Origin: Pseudomonas graminis
Lineage (GTDB): Bacteria; Pseudomonadota; Gammaproteobacteria; Pseudomonadales; Pseudomonadaceae
Reading direction: 5' to 3'
DNA length: 64,000 nucleotides
Assembly: GCF_001705435.1 (NCBI RefSeq)
Contig: NZ_MDEN01000059.1
Span: 62,001-126,000 of the forward strand
Shown here in pieces: positions 41,301-49,764 of the stretch. The position numbers and the translations under genes were made by a program. The number at the start of each line of letters is the position of its first letter. Within the stretch, counting starts at the first letter, position 1. The notes under the pieces are model-generated. The model was not told the origin of the DNA and ran no database searches. It saw nothing but the letters and a program-made list of their open reading frames with translations.

Positions 41301-42836
41301 TCACGTTGTCAAAGTCCGCAGCAGGTTCTTGTAGTCCTCGCGGATGTCCGCATCGGATTCTTTAAGCTCATTGATCTTCCGGCACGCGTGCAAGACCGTC
41401 GTGTGGTCCCGGCCGCCAAACACATCGCCGATTTCAGGAAGGCTGTGATTGGTCAGCTCCTTTGACAAGGCCATCGCCACTTGCCGCGGTCGCGCAACAG
41501 ACCTGGAGCGGCGTTTGGAAAGCAGGTCGGAGATCTTTATCTTGTAGTACTCAGCAACAGTCCGCTGAATGTTATCCACACTCACCAGTTTGTCCTGCAG
41601 CGCGAGCAAATCTTTCAGCGATTCACGGATCAGCTCGATCGTGATGTCCCGACCCATGAAGTGTGAGTGAGCGATGACGCGCTTCAGCGCACCCTCAAGC
41701 TCACGCACATTGGAGCGGATTCGCTGCGCGATAAAAAATGCGGCGTCGTGAGGCAGATCGACTTTCGCCTGATCCGCCTTCTTCATCAAAATCGCCACGC
41801 GTGTTTCAAGTTCCGGTGGCTCGACTGCCACCGTCAGACCCCAGCCGAAGCGTGACTTGAGCCGCTCTTCAAGGCCTTCGATTTCCTTGGGGTAGCGGTC
41901 ACTCGTGAGAATAACCTGCTGACCGCCTTCGAGAAGGGCGTTGAAGGTGTGGAAAAACTCTTCCTGAGAACGTTCCTTACGCGCAAAAAATTGAATGTCA
42001 TCAATCAATAGTGCGTCGACGGAGCGATAGAAGCGTTTGAACTCATTAATGGCATTGAGCTGTAGCGCCTTGACCATATCCGCCACGAATCGCTCGGAGT
42101 GCAGATACACGACCTTGGCGTTAGGATTCTTCTTGAGCAGGTGGTTACCCACAGCATGCATCAAGTGGGTTTTACCCAGACCCACACCTCCATAAAGGAA
42201 GAGTGGGTTGTACCCATGCTTGGGATTGTCAGCTACCTGCCAGGCAGCAGCCCGCGCCAGTTGGTTCGATTTACCTTCGACAAAGTTCTCGAACGTGAAG
42301 GTCCTGTTCAGATAGCTGGTGTGCTTCAGCGCTCCCTCAACCTGAACATTACGCTGCTCGGCGCGCGCAGGAGCTTGCTGAGAACTGGCGCCAGCCATTG
42401 GATCGAAGCTCGCCCTGGAAGGCTCATCCTCGACATTCAATGAGGTTTGAATCATCGGAGCAGGTGTCGCTACGGACTGCGGCGCTCGTGCTGCAGCCGG
42501 TGCTTCGCTGGTGGCTGCCAACTCGGCGGCCTGAGAAGCGGCAGCGGCTGCTGCAAGCGGAGCGTTCGGAGCGGCGCGTGGAGCAGAGCTGCGCTTGCTG
42601 CCTATTAATAAGGACAGCGCCGGCGCAATTCCCAGGCCATGCTCGCCCAGCAACTCGAGCAATCGACCCAGGTACTTTTCATTCACCCAGTCCAGCACAA
42701 ATCGGTTGGGCGCATACACGCGCAATTCGTCGCCTTCAGCTTCAACTTGTAAAGGTCGGATCCAGGTGTTGAATTGCTGGGCAGGCAGCTCATCGCGCAA
42801 AAGCTCAACGCATTGCTGCCAAAGTTCCACTGACAC
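41301..42836 (-). CDS. dnaA: Chromosomal replication initiator DnaA
   Basis: Binds DnaA boxes and melts oriC. It has 511 residues from GTG 42836 ([17 protein letters not shown]). Domain I spans about 1-85; domain II is a long Ala/Pro/Gln-rich linker (about 86-175); domain III is AAA+ with Walker [14 protein letters not shown] and Walker [10 protein letters not shown]; domain IV is the DNA-binding helix-turn-helix with [21 protein letters not shown] perfect DnaA box is found inside the gene at 41572-41580. Confidence 0.99.
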
Positions 42837-42882: not shown

Positions 42883-42913
42883 ATTGTAACCACCCGTAGC
42901 TGACTTATCCACA
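42883..42913 (-). promoter_or_regulatory. dnaA promoter overlapped by a DnaA box
   Basis: Read on the minus strand, TACAAT (42888-42883) is a good -10, about 47 bases before the dnaA GTG. The -35 position 16-17 bases further upstream is occupied by the DnaA box 42905-42913 (TGTGGATAA on this strand). This arrangement suggests that DnaA represses its own gene, as in E. coli; that is an inference. Confidence 0.65.
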
Positions 42914-43331
42914 CGAAGGTAGAGCCCCAGCGCACGAAAGCCTGCAAAAAGCGCCTAAAAAGACGACAGCCGGTGGATAGTTAAGCTCTGTGGATAACTG
43001 AGGGTTAGCTCTCTGCATAACGATGGGTTGAAGTCTGTGGATAAAGCAGCTGTGGATAACTGACCTTTCTATGCACAGCTTGTCGCCAGCTGTCACACAG
43101 CTGCGGCACTGCTTGTGGACAGACTTTCATCCCTCTGTACATCAAGCAGTACGTGGTCTGCAGCGGTTTATCCACAGAAATCCTCTCCCTAAGCTTTTAT
43201 AAGCTTTACAAAGAAGCTTTAAATACCTTCCTTCTTTATTTCTATATCTACGTCCCAAGAATGTAACGACGGATAGATCGCTGTCGACGAAATGGACCCA
43301 GGAACTAAATGCAAGAAACATTGGTTGGAAA

Positions 43332-43420: not shown

Positions 43421-43555
43421 ATGAAACGTACTTTCCAACCCAGCACTATCAAGCGCGCTCGCACCCACGGTTTCCGTGCTCGTATGGCCACCAAAAACGG
43501 TCGCGCAGTTCTTTCGCGTCGTCGCGCCAAAGGCCGTAAGCGTCTGGCAGTTTGA
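43421..43555 (+). CDS. rpmH: 50S ribosomal protein L34
   Basis: A 44-residue basic ribosomal protein ([18 protein letters not shown]... ending KGRKRLAV), identical in plan to other bacterial L34. The start is ATG 43421 with CAGGTAA upstream. It is the first gene of the rpmH-rnpA-yidD-yidC operon, the conserved right neighbour of oriC. Confidence 0.99.
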
Positions 43556-45915: not shown

Positions 45916-45942
45916 CAAAACGCCCCCTAGTGGGGCGTTTTG
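45916..45942 (+). terminator. yidC terminator
   Basis: Eleven-base stem CAAAACGCCCC/GGGGCGTTTTG with loop CTAGT. It lies 23 bases after the yidC stop and ends in TTTTG. It separates yidC from mnmE. Confidence 0.93.
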
Positions 45943-45971
45943 CTATCCGTCGGTTGTCCAGGAGTCGGTCC

Positions 45972-47342
45972 ATGAATGTTCTGTCAGAAACCATTGCGGC
46001 CATTGCAACGGCTCCAGGACGAGGAGGCGTGGGTATCGTCCGTATTTCCGGCCCGAAAGCTTGCAAATGCGCCGAGATGATTCTTGGCAAATTGCCACAG
46101 CCTCGTTACGCACATTACGGCGCTTTCAAGGGAGAAAGCGGCGAAGTGATTGACGAGGGTATTGGTCTGTATTTTTTAGGACCTCACTCGTTCACCGGGG
46201 AGGATGTGCTCGAGCTTCAGGGGCATGGCGGGCCTGTGGTTCTGGATATGTTGCTGCAGCGTTGTGTGCAGCTGGGGTGCCGCCTGGCACGGCCGGGTGA
46301 ATTCAGCGAACGCGCATTTCTCAATGACAAGCTTGACCTGGCCCAAGCCGAGGCGATCGCGGACCTCATTGAGGCGAGTTCTGCGCAAGCTGCGCGTAAC
46401 GCCTTGAGGTCGCTGCAGGGTGCATTTTCCCAGCGAGTGCATGAGCTCACTGAGAAACTCATCAGCCTGCGCATTTACGTTGAAGCGGCCATCGACTTTC
46501 CAGAGGAGGAAATCGACTTTCTCGCGGACGGTCACGTGCTGACCATGTTGGATAACGTACGCAATCAGTTATCCACAGTGTTGCATGAGGCCAATCAGGG
46601 AGCGTTACTCAGGGATGGCATGAATGTGGTTATCGCCGGCAGGCCCAATGCCGGTAAATCCAGTCTCCTGAATGCACTGGCGGGTAAAGAAGCGGCGATC
46701 GTAACTGAGATTGCCGGCACAACCCGGGATGTCCTCCGTGAACATATCCACATTGACGGGATGCCACTTCATGTTGTGGACACTGCCGGTCTGCGTGATA
46801 CCGACGATCAGGTGGAAAAGATAGGCGTTCAACGCGCGCTTCAGGCGATTGGCCAGGCAGATCGCATTTTGTTGGTGGTCGATGCAACGGCGCCCGAGGC
46901 CAGCGATCCCTTTGCACTGTGGCCAGAGTTCCTCGATCAACGGCCTGACCCGGCCCATGTCACCCTGATTCGTAACAAGGTGGACTTGAGCGACGAACCA
47001 GTGGAACTGGTGACCAGCGTCGATGGCCACGTGACCATCAGCCTGAGTGCAAAGGCCGGTGGGGAAGGTGTGGAGCTTTTGCGCGAGCATCTGAAGGCGT
47101 GCATGGGGTATCAGCAAACAGCCGAGGGAAGCTTCAGTGCACGCCGGCGCCATCTTGAGGCGTTGCACACGGCAAGTGCTTCTCTCGAGCATGGACGCTC
47201 GCAGCTGACCTTAGCCGGCGCGGGTGAGCTACTTGCCGAGGACCTGCGCCAAGCCCAGCAGTCCCTTGGCGAAATTACCGGCGCCTTCAACTCGGACGAC
47301 TTATTGGGGCGGATTTTCTCCAGCTTTTGCATCGGCAAATAG
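45972..47342 (+). CDS. mnmE: tRNA modification GTPase MnmE
   Basis: With MnmG, forms the cmnm5 group on U34 of some tRNAs. It has 456 residues from ATG 45972 ([19 protein letters not shown]), with AGGAG upstream. The N-terminal folate-binding domain is followed by a helical domain and an inserted GTPase: G1 GRPNAGKS at 223-230, G3 DTAG, G4 NKVD; the catalytic C-terminal ending is FCIGK. In-frame codons from 45930 lie in the yidC terminator and are rejected. A DnaA box is in the gene at 46569-46577. Confidence 0.98.
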
Positions 47343-47862
47343 CACCACGCCCTATCCCCAGGCAGGTCAATCTCTCCGGACCTGCCTCATATCGATTCAC
47401 TCATCCCATTTTTCGTGACTTCCGATCAGCGCGCCGGCGGATAAGTGCACCTCGAATTTAACCGTTCAGCACCTGAATGCTCGGATAAGCCCTGTGTATA
47501 ACCGCAACTGAGCTCGGTTGATAAACAGGCATCAGACCTGAGGATAATCGTGCCTGTGGACAACTGGTCATTTAATCCACAGGCTTAGACCCGTTATCCA
47601 AGGGTCTCTTGGTCACATGGACACAGGGTTTTGATTCTCTGTACAGCACGTAGATAAAGGCCCTCATGACTTTATCCACAGAAAGGGTGCTCAGTAGAAA
47701 TAAACATAAAAACAAAGATCTTATAAATTTCTTTCTTTTTAATTTCTATAACCGCTATTCATCCACAGCTGGTTAGATTTTGCGCAACGGGTTTCTTAAG
47801 GGGGGGTAAGTCCCTATACTTGCCGCCATTCCTATTCCCCCCAATCAACAGGCACGAGGTGC
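47343..47862. other. Second origin-like intergenic region (mnmE-mnmG)
   Basis: A 520-base gap with no gene. It contains one perfect DnaA box (47672-47680), imperfect boxes near 47493, 47555, 47573, 47594 and 47758, and an AT-rich segment (47698-47750). The part 47671-47750 matches oriC 43167-43246: both start TTTATCCACAGAAA, end ATTTCTATA, and share the same internal spacing. Autonomously replicating fragments from this part of Pseudomonas chromosomes have, as I recall, been reported. The 3' end carries the mnmG promoter. Confidence 0.75.
47815..47820 (+). promoter_or_regulatory. Candidate -10 of mnmG
   Basis: TATACT, 43 bases before the mnmG start and just after a G-run at 47801-47807. The -35 (TTTCTT, 47792-47797) is poor. 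The box context CCCTATACT resembles the atpI promoter (CCCCTATACT). Confidence 0.5.
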
Positions 47863-49764
47863 GTGGTGGATTTCCCTTCCCGTTTTCAAGTGATCGTCAT
47901 CGGCGGCGGTCATGCCGGTACCGAGGCAGCACTGGCGTCCGCACGTATGGGTGCTACCACCCTGCTGCTTACGCACAACGTGGAAACCCTCGGCCAAATG
48001 AGTTGCAACCCGGCCATTGGTGGCATCGGTAAGAGTCATCTGGTCAAAGAGATCGATGCGCTTGGCGGAGCAATGGCAACGGCCACTGACAAAAGTGGTA
48101 TTCAGTTCCGCGTGCTCAATGGCCGCAAAGGCCCAGCTGTCCGGGCAACGCGTGCCCAGGCTGACCGGGTGTTGTACAAGGCGGCGGTCAGGGAAATTAT
48201 TGAAAACCAGCCCAACCTCTGGGTATTCCAGCAGGCATGCGATGACCTGATCGTTGAGCAAGACCAGGTGCGCGGCGTAGTGACTCAGATGGGCCTGCGG
48301 TTTATGGCCGACTCCGTGGTTCTCACCACGGGTACCTTTCTGGGCGGACTTATCCACATTGGTCTACAGAACTATTCAGGCGGTCGCGCCGGTGATCCGC
48401 CATCCATTGCGCTTGCACGCAGGCTCCGTGAGCTACCGCTGAGAGTGGGTCGCCTGAAAACGGGCACACCTCCGCGCATCGATGGCCGATCCGTGGATTT
48501 CTCGGTGATGACCGAACAGCCTGGGGATACGCCGATCCCGGTGATGTCGTTCATGGGCTCAAAGGCTCAACACCCGAGCCAGGTCAGTTGCTGGATTACT
48601 CACACCAATTCCCAGACCCACGAAATCATTGCGGCCAATCTGGATCGGTCGCCGATGTATTCTGCTGCCGGGGAGATCGAAGGGGTCGGCCCGCGCTATT
48701 GCCCGTCGATTGAGGACAAGATCCATCGTTTTGCCGACAAGGAAAGCCATCAGGTGTTTATCGAACCGGAAGGTTTGACGACCCATGAGCTTTATCCAAA
48801 CGGTATATCGACCTCGCTGCCGTTCGATGTACAGCTCCAGATCGTCCGGTCTATTCGCGGGATGGAAAACGCCCACATTGTTCGGCCTGGCTATGCCATC
48901 GAGTACGACTACTTCGACCCGCGCGACCTGAAGTACAGCCTGGAAACCAAGGTTATCGGTGGTTTGTTCTTTGCAGGCCAGATCAACGGTACGACCGGTT
49001 ACGAAGAAGCCGGTGCGCAAGGTTTGCTCGCCGGTGCCAACGCGGCCCTCAGGGCTCAAGGCAAGGACAGCTGGTGTCCGCGTCGCGATGAAGCTTACAT
49101 CGGCGTGCTGGTGGATGACCTGATTACGCTGGGCACACAAGAGCCGTACCGGATGTTCACCTCGCGCGCCGAATACCGGCTGATTTTGCGCGAAGACAAC
49201 GCGGACTTGCGTCTGACTGAACAGGGTCGGGCGCTGGGGTTGGTCGACGACGCCCGCTGGGCGGCGTTCTGTGCCAAGCGTGAGGGCATCGAGCTGGAAG
49301 AACAACGCCTGAAGTCCACCTGGATTCGTCCGGGTACCGAGCAGGGCGATGCGGTCTCGGCGCACTTCGGCACGCCATTGACCCACGAATACAATCTGCT
49401 GAATCTGCTGAGCCGCCCCGAAGTGGATTACGCCAGCCTGGTTGCGCTGACCGGCCACGGCTCGCCTGACCCGCAGGTCGCTGAACAGGTCGAAATCAAG
49501 ACCAAGTACGCCGGTTACATCGACCGTCAGCAAGATGAAATCACTCGTCTGCGTGCCAGCGAAAATACTCGACTCCCTGCTGACATCGACTACACCGGGA
49601 TTTCCGGTCTGTCCAAAGAAATCCAGAGCAAGCTGGGGATAACTCGTCCGGAAACCCTAGGCCAAGCCTCGCGGATTCCCGGCGTTACCCCGGCGGCGAT
49701 TTCTCTGTTGATGATTCATTTGAAAAAACGCGGCGCGGGCCGTCAGTTGGAGCAAAGCGCTTGA
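47863..49764 (+). CDS. mnmG: tRNA uridine 5-carboxymethylaminomethyl modification enzyme MnmG
   Basis: FAD-dependent partner of MnmE in U34 modification. It has 633 residues from GTG 47863 (a second GTG follows directly). The FAD-binding loop is [19 protein letters not shown]; GidA signatures are [23 protein letters not shown] and [24 protein letters not shown]. The C-terminal helical domain binds MnmE. The stop overlaps the putative rsmG TTG start. A DnaA box is in the gene at 48350-48358. Confidence 0.98.

Follow-up and report, generated by a model that had tools for sequence, protein, structure and literature searches.

Introduction

The locus between mnmE and mnmG raises the question of whether a Pseudomonas chromosome carries a second replication origin module besides oriC, and, if so, what it does there. 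According to the textbook rule a bacterial chromosome has one start site. The window, which is the whole 64-kb stretch of DNA analysed here, is a Pseudomonas-type origin region. Its minus strand carries gyrB-recF-dnaN-dnaA (dnaA at 41301-42836), followed by oriC, and the plus strand then reads rpmH (43421-43555), rnpA, yidD, yidC, mnmE (45930-47342), the gap under study, mnmG, also called gidA (47863-49764), rsmG, parA, parB and the atp genes; all gene names were taken from the translations. The Pseudomonas oriC was reportedly placed between dnaA and rpmH by Yee and Smith in 1990. The same position, between rpmH and dnaA, is given in passages of several genome papers (PMC3056050, PMC3596284, PMC6053426). 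Two autonomously replicating segments, which the initial annotation mentioned as known in Pseudomonas, are in print for P. aeruginosa: a passage of Gao 2015 (PMC4403523) refers to Yee and Smith 1990 and to Smith 1991 for two such elements and, with Jiang 2006 as its source, presents only one as essential in usual laboratory growth and the other as maybe a once-used origin. The likeness to these elements, as far as that passage describes them, lies in there being two origin elements per chromosome, one of them dispensable; the second P. aeruginosa element may or may not be the mnmE-mnmG gap. Searches of the open-licence PMC literature turned up no paper that places a Pseudomonas origin between mnmE and mnmG. 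The paralogy and geometry of the module in that gap come from this work.

In the window the cumulative skew reaches its minimum at ~45-46 kb, between oriC and the mnmG-side module, and the four-fold-site skew of the genes between both sites does not tell which of them starts replication. No RNA family reached its gathering threshold between 42 and 49 kb. A plasmid origin was considered as a reading of the gap and rejected, since the plasmid records held no similar DNA.

Match between the mnmE-mnmG gap and oriC

The mnmG-side module as a whole occupies 47483-47750 on the plus strand, as delimited by the match of a profile built from oriC copies, and the profile of the mnmG-side copies spans 47454-47800. 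Its sole comparable partner in the window is the canonical oriC module of the dnaA-rpmH gap (42976-43252, plus strand), delimited in turn by the match of the mnmG-side profile. It had been noted at the outset that both sites start with TTTATCCACAGAAA (43167 and 47671), that TTTCTATA follows 72 bases on in each, and that about 30 of the final 39 bases are identical, with ACAAAGA at equal offset. These coordinates hold, and a count from the alignment bore out the 30 of 39. Over the end part as a whole, 51 of 80 bases are identical without gaps. Within the 5.96-Mb genome the 14-mer TTTATCCACAGAAA has no further occurrence, and its reversed control has none at all; of 298 genus genomes 32 contain it, four of them twice, so that its exact form is local.

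Several imperfect DnaA boxes had also been seen upstream, as in oriC. This is right and understated, the offsets and strands of these boxes being equal to those of oriC. When boxes are called at no more than 2 mismatches and offsets are counted from the end box, six boxes are common to both sites, with the same strand and with spacing within 1 bp. In the gap these are TTATACACA at -179 (47493-47501, minus), in the place of the E. coli box R4 (-180); the weak box TTATCAACC at -156 (47516-47524, minus); TTATCCTCA at -133, against -132 in oriC (47539-47547, minus); TTGTCCACA at -117 (47555-47563, minus); TAATCCACA at -99 (47573-47581, plus); and, at 0, the perfect box TTATCCACA (47672-47680, plus), which is the equivalent of R1. 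The R1 box of oriC has the same sequence (43168-43176, plus). Two called boxes are peculiar to oriC (-196 and -54, both minus) and two to the gap (-78, plus, and -23, minus). The inner boxes of the mnmG side carry 1-2 mismatches, whereas oriC has perfect boxes at -179, -132 and -117. A further perfect DnaA box (42905-42913, plus) lies beyond the shared module, in the part of the oriC gap that is nearer dnaA.

The likeness extends over the whole length of the two modules. Between -195 and +84 the ungapped identity is 151 of 280 bases, against 58-89 when the sequences are slid by 1-6 bases. A five-box score reached 39 of 45 in the gap and 41 of 45 in oriC; random sequences, drawn as two sets of 20,000, gave maxima of 25 and 24. 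When the same boxes were placed at random, a single trial in 100,000 produced five shared positions. In the window the mnmG-side profile finds oriC with an E value of 1.1e-39, 277 columns being aligned with 277 bases; the reciprocal match, of the oriC profile to the gap, has 6.5e-35. These matches score 130.0 and 114.1 bits, the next ones in the 64 kb at most 12.8; both profiles were built from Pseudomonas loci, and the mnmG-side profile included the window sequence. Chance similarity is ruled out by the random sequences, the sliding and the whole-genome counts. As read from sequence, the mnmE-mnmG gap contains a complete paralogue, ~275 bp long, of the dnaA-rpmH oriC, beyond a similar end. 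This paralogue resembles the Pseudomonas dnaA-rpmH oriC in box geometry, strand, spacing between R1 and the DUE, AT-rich block and ungapped sequence match, and differs from it in being at another locus and in its weaker inner boxes.

A motif other than a DnaA box, CTCTGTACA, is present at -35 in both modules (43133-43141 and 47637-47645). It was found within the 60 bases before R1 in 28 of 43 oriC copies and 40 of 70 mnmG copies from Pseudomonas.

Candidate unwinding regions

Next to R1 each module has an AT-rich block. Of all 60-bp stretches in the 64 kb, none is less stable than the candidate DUE of the mnmG side (47691-47750); the candidate unwinding region of oriC (43190-43249) comes second. 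Their nearest-neighbour stabilities are -1.042 and -1.113 kcal per step (third stretch, -1.213). In all 43 Pseudomonas loci that have both modules, no other stretch of the fetched DNA is as weak as the two DUEs; the mnmG-side one is the weaker in 36 of the 43, and the value for E. coli oriC is -1.091. In Pseudomonas copies the mean AT content is 0.68-0.82 at +20 to +80 and falls to 0.43-0.44 in the following 20 bases. For P. aeruginosa, a passage of PMC5109545 reports opening in vivo 18-46 nt past R1 at the dnaA-rpmH origin and makes no mention of the mnmG side. A primer printed in that paper, used to look for P. aeruginosa among the genomes, matched 0 of 398 from the genus and 0 of 148 from the family.

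An alignment of many Pseudomonas genomes had been proposed as a check on the 72-base geometry. In its literal form this geometry proved a minority feature: oriC has TTTCTATA at that spacing in 11 copies out of 43, the mnmG side in 12 out of 70. What is fixed is therefore the box array and the length of the block, not the octamer. A refutation that hinges on the exact motif, as set out in the initial annotation, would discard the second module wrongly, since the conserved parts are the arrangement of the boxes and the AT-rich block. DnaA-trios, looked for as at least three in a run after the box, were not found at either site. The longest run is two at the gap and at oriC alike, so that trios do not separate the two sites; under the same rule the longest run at E. 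coli oriC is three. Trios are not universal according to a passage of PMC8287927, in which 1755 of 2070 predicted origins have them. A strict pattern for IHF gave no match at either site, nor in E. coli oriC itself. Save for the DnaA-trios, the cis parts of an origin that were looked for, namely a box cluster and an AT-rich block by R1, are present at the mnmG side.

Conservation within Pseudomonas

Both gaps were followed through 72 Pseudomonas loci (71 fetched plus the window). Two of these (L057 and L059) yielded no mnmE-mnmG gap and 29 no dnaA-rpmH gap, because the stretch or contig ended or an anchor gene was missing. The mnmG-side module was present in 70 of 70 measurable loci and scored 44-48 of 54; for the oriC module the figures are 43 of 43 and 38-50 of 54, L053 being the weakest copy at 38. 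Each profile also matches the opposite copies on the plus strand throughout, the mnmG-side profile in 43/43 oriC copies and the oriC profile in 70/70 mnmG copies. Whole genomes of the genus (99) were scanned for three boxes at exact spacing, allowing up to 3 mismatches in 27 bases. Exactly two same-strand matches were obtained in 95 of them and never three, and the reversed pattern was found in 0 of 99. The exceptions are G028, G036 and G054, with one match each, and G080, with none (86% complete). In the genome studied here the two matches are oriC and the mnmG-side site. The distance from R1 to R1 is 4.3-5.6 kb in the 43 loci with both modules in the fetched stretch, and the match pairs listed in the genus scan include some that are ~8-9 kb apart.

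Divergence was gauged by the four-fold sites of the first 99 mnmG codons, the pairs of loci being non-independent. In pairs with less than 80% four-fold-site identity the mnmG module is conserved better than oriC; at 50-60% the module values are 0.608 for mnmG and 0.533 for oriC, and those for the DUE 0.640 and 0.478. In closer pairs both modules are alike or oriC is ahead (DUE at 80-90%, 0.856 for oriC vs 0.838 for mnmG). The better conservation of the mnmG module persists with weak oriC copies omitted. Along the mnmG copies, conservation is 0.86 at -190 to -171 and drops to ~0.3-0.5 upstream, and the most conserved 20-base bin of the module lies within the DUE (+30 to +49, 0.91). On the face of the alignments, this is the pattern expected of selection on an intact module.

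The same data bear on an unlikely alternative, in which the module would be a DnaA reservoir or nucleotide-switch site comparable to datA or DARS, titrating DnaA or altering its ATP state and thereby tuning oriC 4.5 kb away, with no initiation of its own. Such a role would suit the weaker boxes of the mnmG side and the closeness of the two copies, which are replicated almost at once, and it would agree with the report of only one essential origin in the passage of Gao 2015 (PMC4403523). However, titration needs neither a fixed R1-DUE spacing nor an unwinding block, and here the DUE is both the weakest duplex of the window and the site of the most conserved bin.

The module keeps close to mnmG. 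R1 lies 190-386 bp from mnmG in Pseudomonas copies (median 218; 191 bp in the window), and in the 25 of 70 loci with more than 1 kb between mnmE and mnmG the median is still 218 bp (191-322). Past the DUE and ahead of mnmG, the window carries an extra box, TCATCCACA, at +87 (47759-47767, plus); of the 70 mnmG copies 45 have a box-like 9-mer at this offset, which is not among the common oriC positions. The +87 box may link the module with mnmG transcription. The closeness to mnmG, kept where more than 1 kb separates mnmE and mnmG, and the +87 site would both be accounted for by a DnaA-controlled promoter region, in which boxes and AT-rich DNA time mnmG transcription with replication, but this explanation is improbable: it leaves unexplained a geometry equal to that of oriC, and no sigma-70-type promoter was found by consensus in 47300-47900, though shuffles average just 1.0.

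Five of the loci with such a long gap were read out (L004, L012, L028, L041 and L047), and the module is intact in all of them. From their translations, L004 and L012 have apparent FecI/FecR/siderophore-receptor cassettes between mnmE and the module. The stretch in L041 contains a two-component system and an MsrP-like protein and that of L047 a RhuM-like protein; in L028 nothing clear was recognised.

History and occurrence outside the genus

In a tree of 86 modules, 42 of 43 mnmG copies fall in one clade without any oriC copy (support 0.919), and one lies outside. The copies thus group by site and not by genome, from which it follows that the duplication predates the genus. Recent duplication and strong gene conversion were ruled out as explanations by this same split. 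The module identity of the two copies is 0.494 within a genome and 0.483 between genomes, and 0 of 2000 random matchings reach the own-genome value; the excess possibly reflects weak homogenisation or shared base composition. The likeness of the two DUEs of the window, 0.56, is the highest of 43.

For the other genera of the family, 36 genomes were taken, of which G317 (already represented by L141) and G579 (contig edge) were not newly fetched; the set examined comprised 34 loci from 18 genera. The mnmG side was found in 30 of these 34 Pseudomonadaceae loci; this count includes L233, of which only the R1-DUE end matches. Of the 34 dnaA-rpmH gaps, 19 could be delimited and 15 could not, and the dnaA side was found in 18 of the 19. 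The four loci without an mnmG-side match, together with the reduction of L233 to the R1-DUE end, show that the module can be lost. In L245, L253 and L254, of the same family, neither profile matches at 1e-3 on the plus strand of the fetched stretches, and both modules have possibly been lost or relocated.

The initial annotation spoke of a functional or decayed second origin, or a DnaA regulatory copy, rather than chance. A second module is strongly supported; decay is contradicted by its presence in all 70 loci at 44-48 of 54, and a functional origin is, as far as the sequence tells, possible. That the module is a relic of a former E. coli-type origin, decaying without function, is very improbable. 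Imperfect boxes and absence from four family loci would be expected of a relic; presence in every measured Pseudomonas locus and retention of exactly two copies in 95 of 99 genomes would not. Decay is rejected because beyond close relatives the conservation of the mnmG side is at or above the level of oriC.

Farther out, in 140 genomes of the order outside the family, the strict three-box pattern was found only in G350, G345 and G729, once in each; the match in G350 adjoins mnmG. Stretches were fetched from 51 of the 55 order genomes with a match and from 29 of the 91 class genomes, mostly for matches away from contig edges. Under a looser geometry, the loci whose mnmG side beat each of 200 shuffles number 18 of 67 in the named set, 15 of 48 in the order and 0 of 28 in the class; for the dnaA-rpmH gap the corresponding counts are 1 of 10, 5 of 31 and 0 of 4. 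Both sites passed in L141, of the same family, and, within the named set, in the Alteromonadaceae locus L114. Profile matches below 1e-3 upstream of mnmG came from 9 of the 67 named loci, Erwinia, Halomonas, Amphritea and Porticoccus being among them, and from 9 of the 51 order loci, one of which belongs to the family; none of the 29 class loci gave one. In the dnaA-rpmH gap such matches were seen in 0 of 12, 2 of 31 and 0 of 5, respectively. The reversed sequence of the named loci gave no profile match below 0.05. In the order member L184 the dnaA-rpmH gap has boxes at -179, -157, -136 and 0, and upstream of mnmG there is none at up to 1 mismatch; L184 is possibly, to judge by these boxes, a lineage that keeps only the dnaA-side copy.

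Comparison with bipartite origins and with E. coli oriC

Two DnaA-box clusters near each other are also a feature of the bipartite origins of B. subtilis and H. pylori. In these, according to a passage of PMC4285127, the DUE is located in one of the two subregions and dnaA usually lies between them; in contrast, each Pseudomonas module has its own AT-rich block, and the genes from rpmH to mnmE lie in between. A single bipartite or composite origin, whose modules would loop together via DnaA and each aid the opening of the other, has little probability. It would explain the common strand in 95 of 99 genomes, the R1 boxes 4.3-5.6 kb apart in 43 loci and the retention of both modules across the family. 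It is harder to reconcile with the listed pairs ~8-9 kb apart, with the geometry being found outside the family mostly at one site only (L114 passes at both) and, as far as PMC4285127 describes the known cases, with the presence of a DUE in each module.

E. coli oriC adjoins mnmG on the upstream side. Toward mnmG it carries the boxes R4 (-180, minus), R2 (-106, minus) and R1 (0, plus), the last of which is 176 bp from mnmG. The mnmG-side module is likewise located directly upstream of mnmG, in the same orientation and with the DUE facing mnmG. The spacing between R4 (minus) and R1 (plus) is 179 bp in this module and 180 bp in E. coli oriC, on the same strands, and the distance from R1 to mnmG is 191 bp in the window against 176 bp in E. 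coli. Differences are found in R2, whose position at -106 is unmatched in the module (nearest boxes -117 and -99), and in the number of GATC sites within -230 to +130, which is 1 in the module and 15 in E. coli oriC. GATC sites serve SeqA/Dam control. The profiles match E. coli oriC in short pieces only; at the same place they match Erwinia with E values of 5e-5 and 3e-6 and Kluyvera with 0.002. By position the gap module is taken to correspond to E. coli oriC, the dnaA-side oriC being the paralogue of the gap module; the link to E. coli is made by place, orientation and R1-R4 spacing and not by a direct sequence score.

Proposed function

With an estimated probability of about 60%, the gap contains a second DnaA-dependent origin module that has been maintained at the E. 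coli-type locus upstream of mnmG. This paralogue of oriC would serve as a reserve or conditional start or as an accessory (helper) DnaA assembly beside the main origin. In the usual orisome model, DnaA on R1 and an R4-like box seeds an oligomer over weaker boxes and the DUE is melted. At the mnmG side DnaA would accordingly be predicted to bind R1 and the R4-like box and then to fill the weaker boxes between them, and an oligomer extending from R1 would melt the adjacent AT-rich block, as at oriC. Since the inner boxes are weaker here, more DnaA-ATP is expected to be needed; the module would load later or only in some conditions, at higher DnaA-ATP. Counted against an mnmG-side origin are, among other things, the mismatches of the inner boxes, the report that only one of the two P. 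aeruginosa origins is essential, the opening reported at dnaA-rpmH and the genome papers that give oriC as lying between rpmH and dnaA.

A bolder reading, to which somewhat less than even odds are given, is that Pseudomonadaceae keep two homologous, competent origins side by side, at the dnaA locus and the mnmG locus, the latter being used conditionally. If this is true, the two known origin locations of gammaproteobacteria would be paralogues that were once present together, of which lineages kept one, the other or both. A family with two matching origin modules ~4-9 kb apart is a natural test of the reason for the one-origin rule, and it suggests in concrete terms how the gammaproteobacterial origin could have shifted between the dnaA and mnmG loci.

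The two sites differ in the usual sequence of R1: on the mnmG side 42 of 70 copies read CTATCCACA, and at oriC 34 of 43 read TTATCCACA. A passage on gammaBOriS (PMC7174414) gives TCTATCCACAGAA as a Pseudomonas R1 motif, listed only as a DnaA box. At R1, TCTATCCACAGAA was found in 39 of 70 mnmG copies and in 1 of 43 oriC copies, which suggests that the Pseudomonas set of gammaBOriS holds mnmG-side sequences; Pseudomonas origin predictions may mix two paralogous sites.
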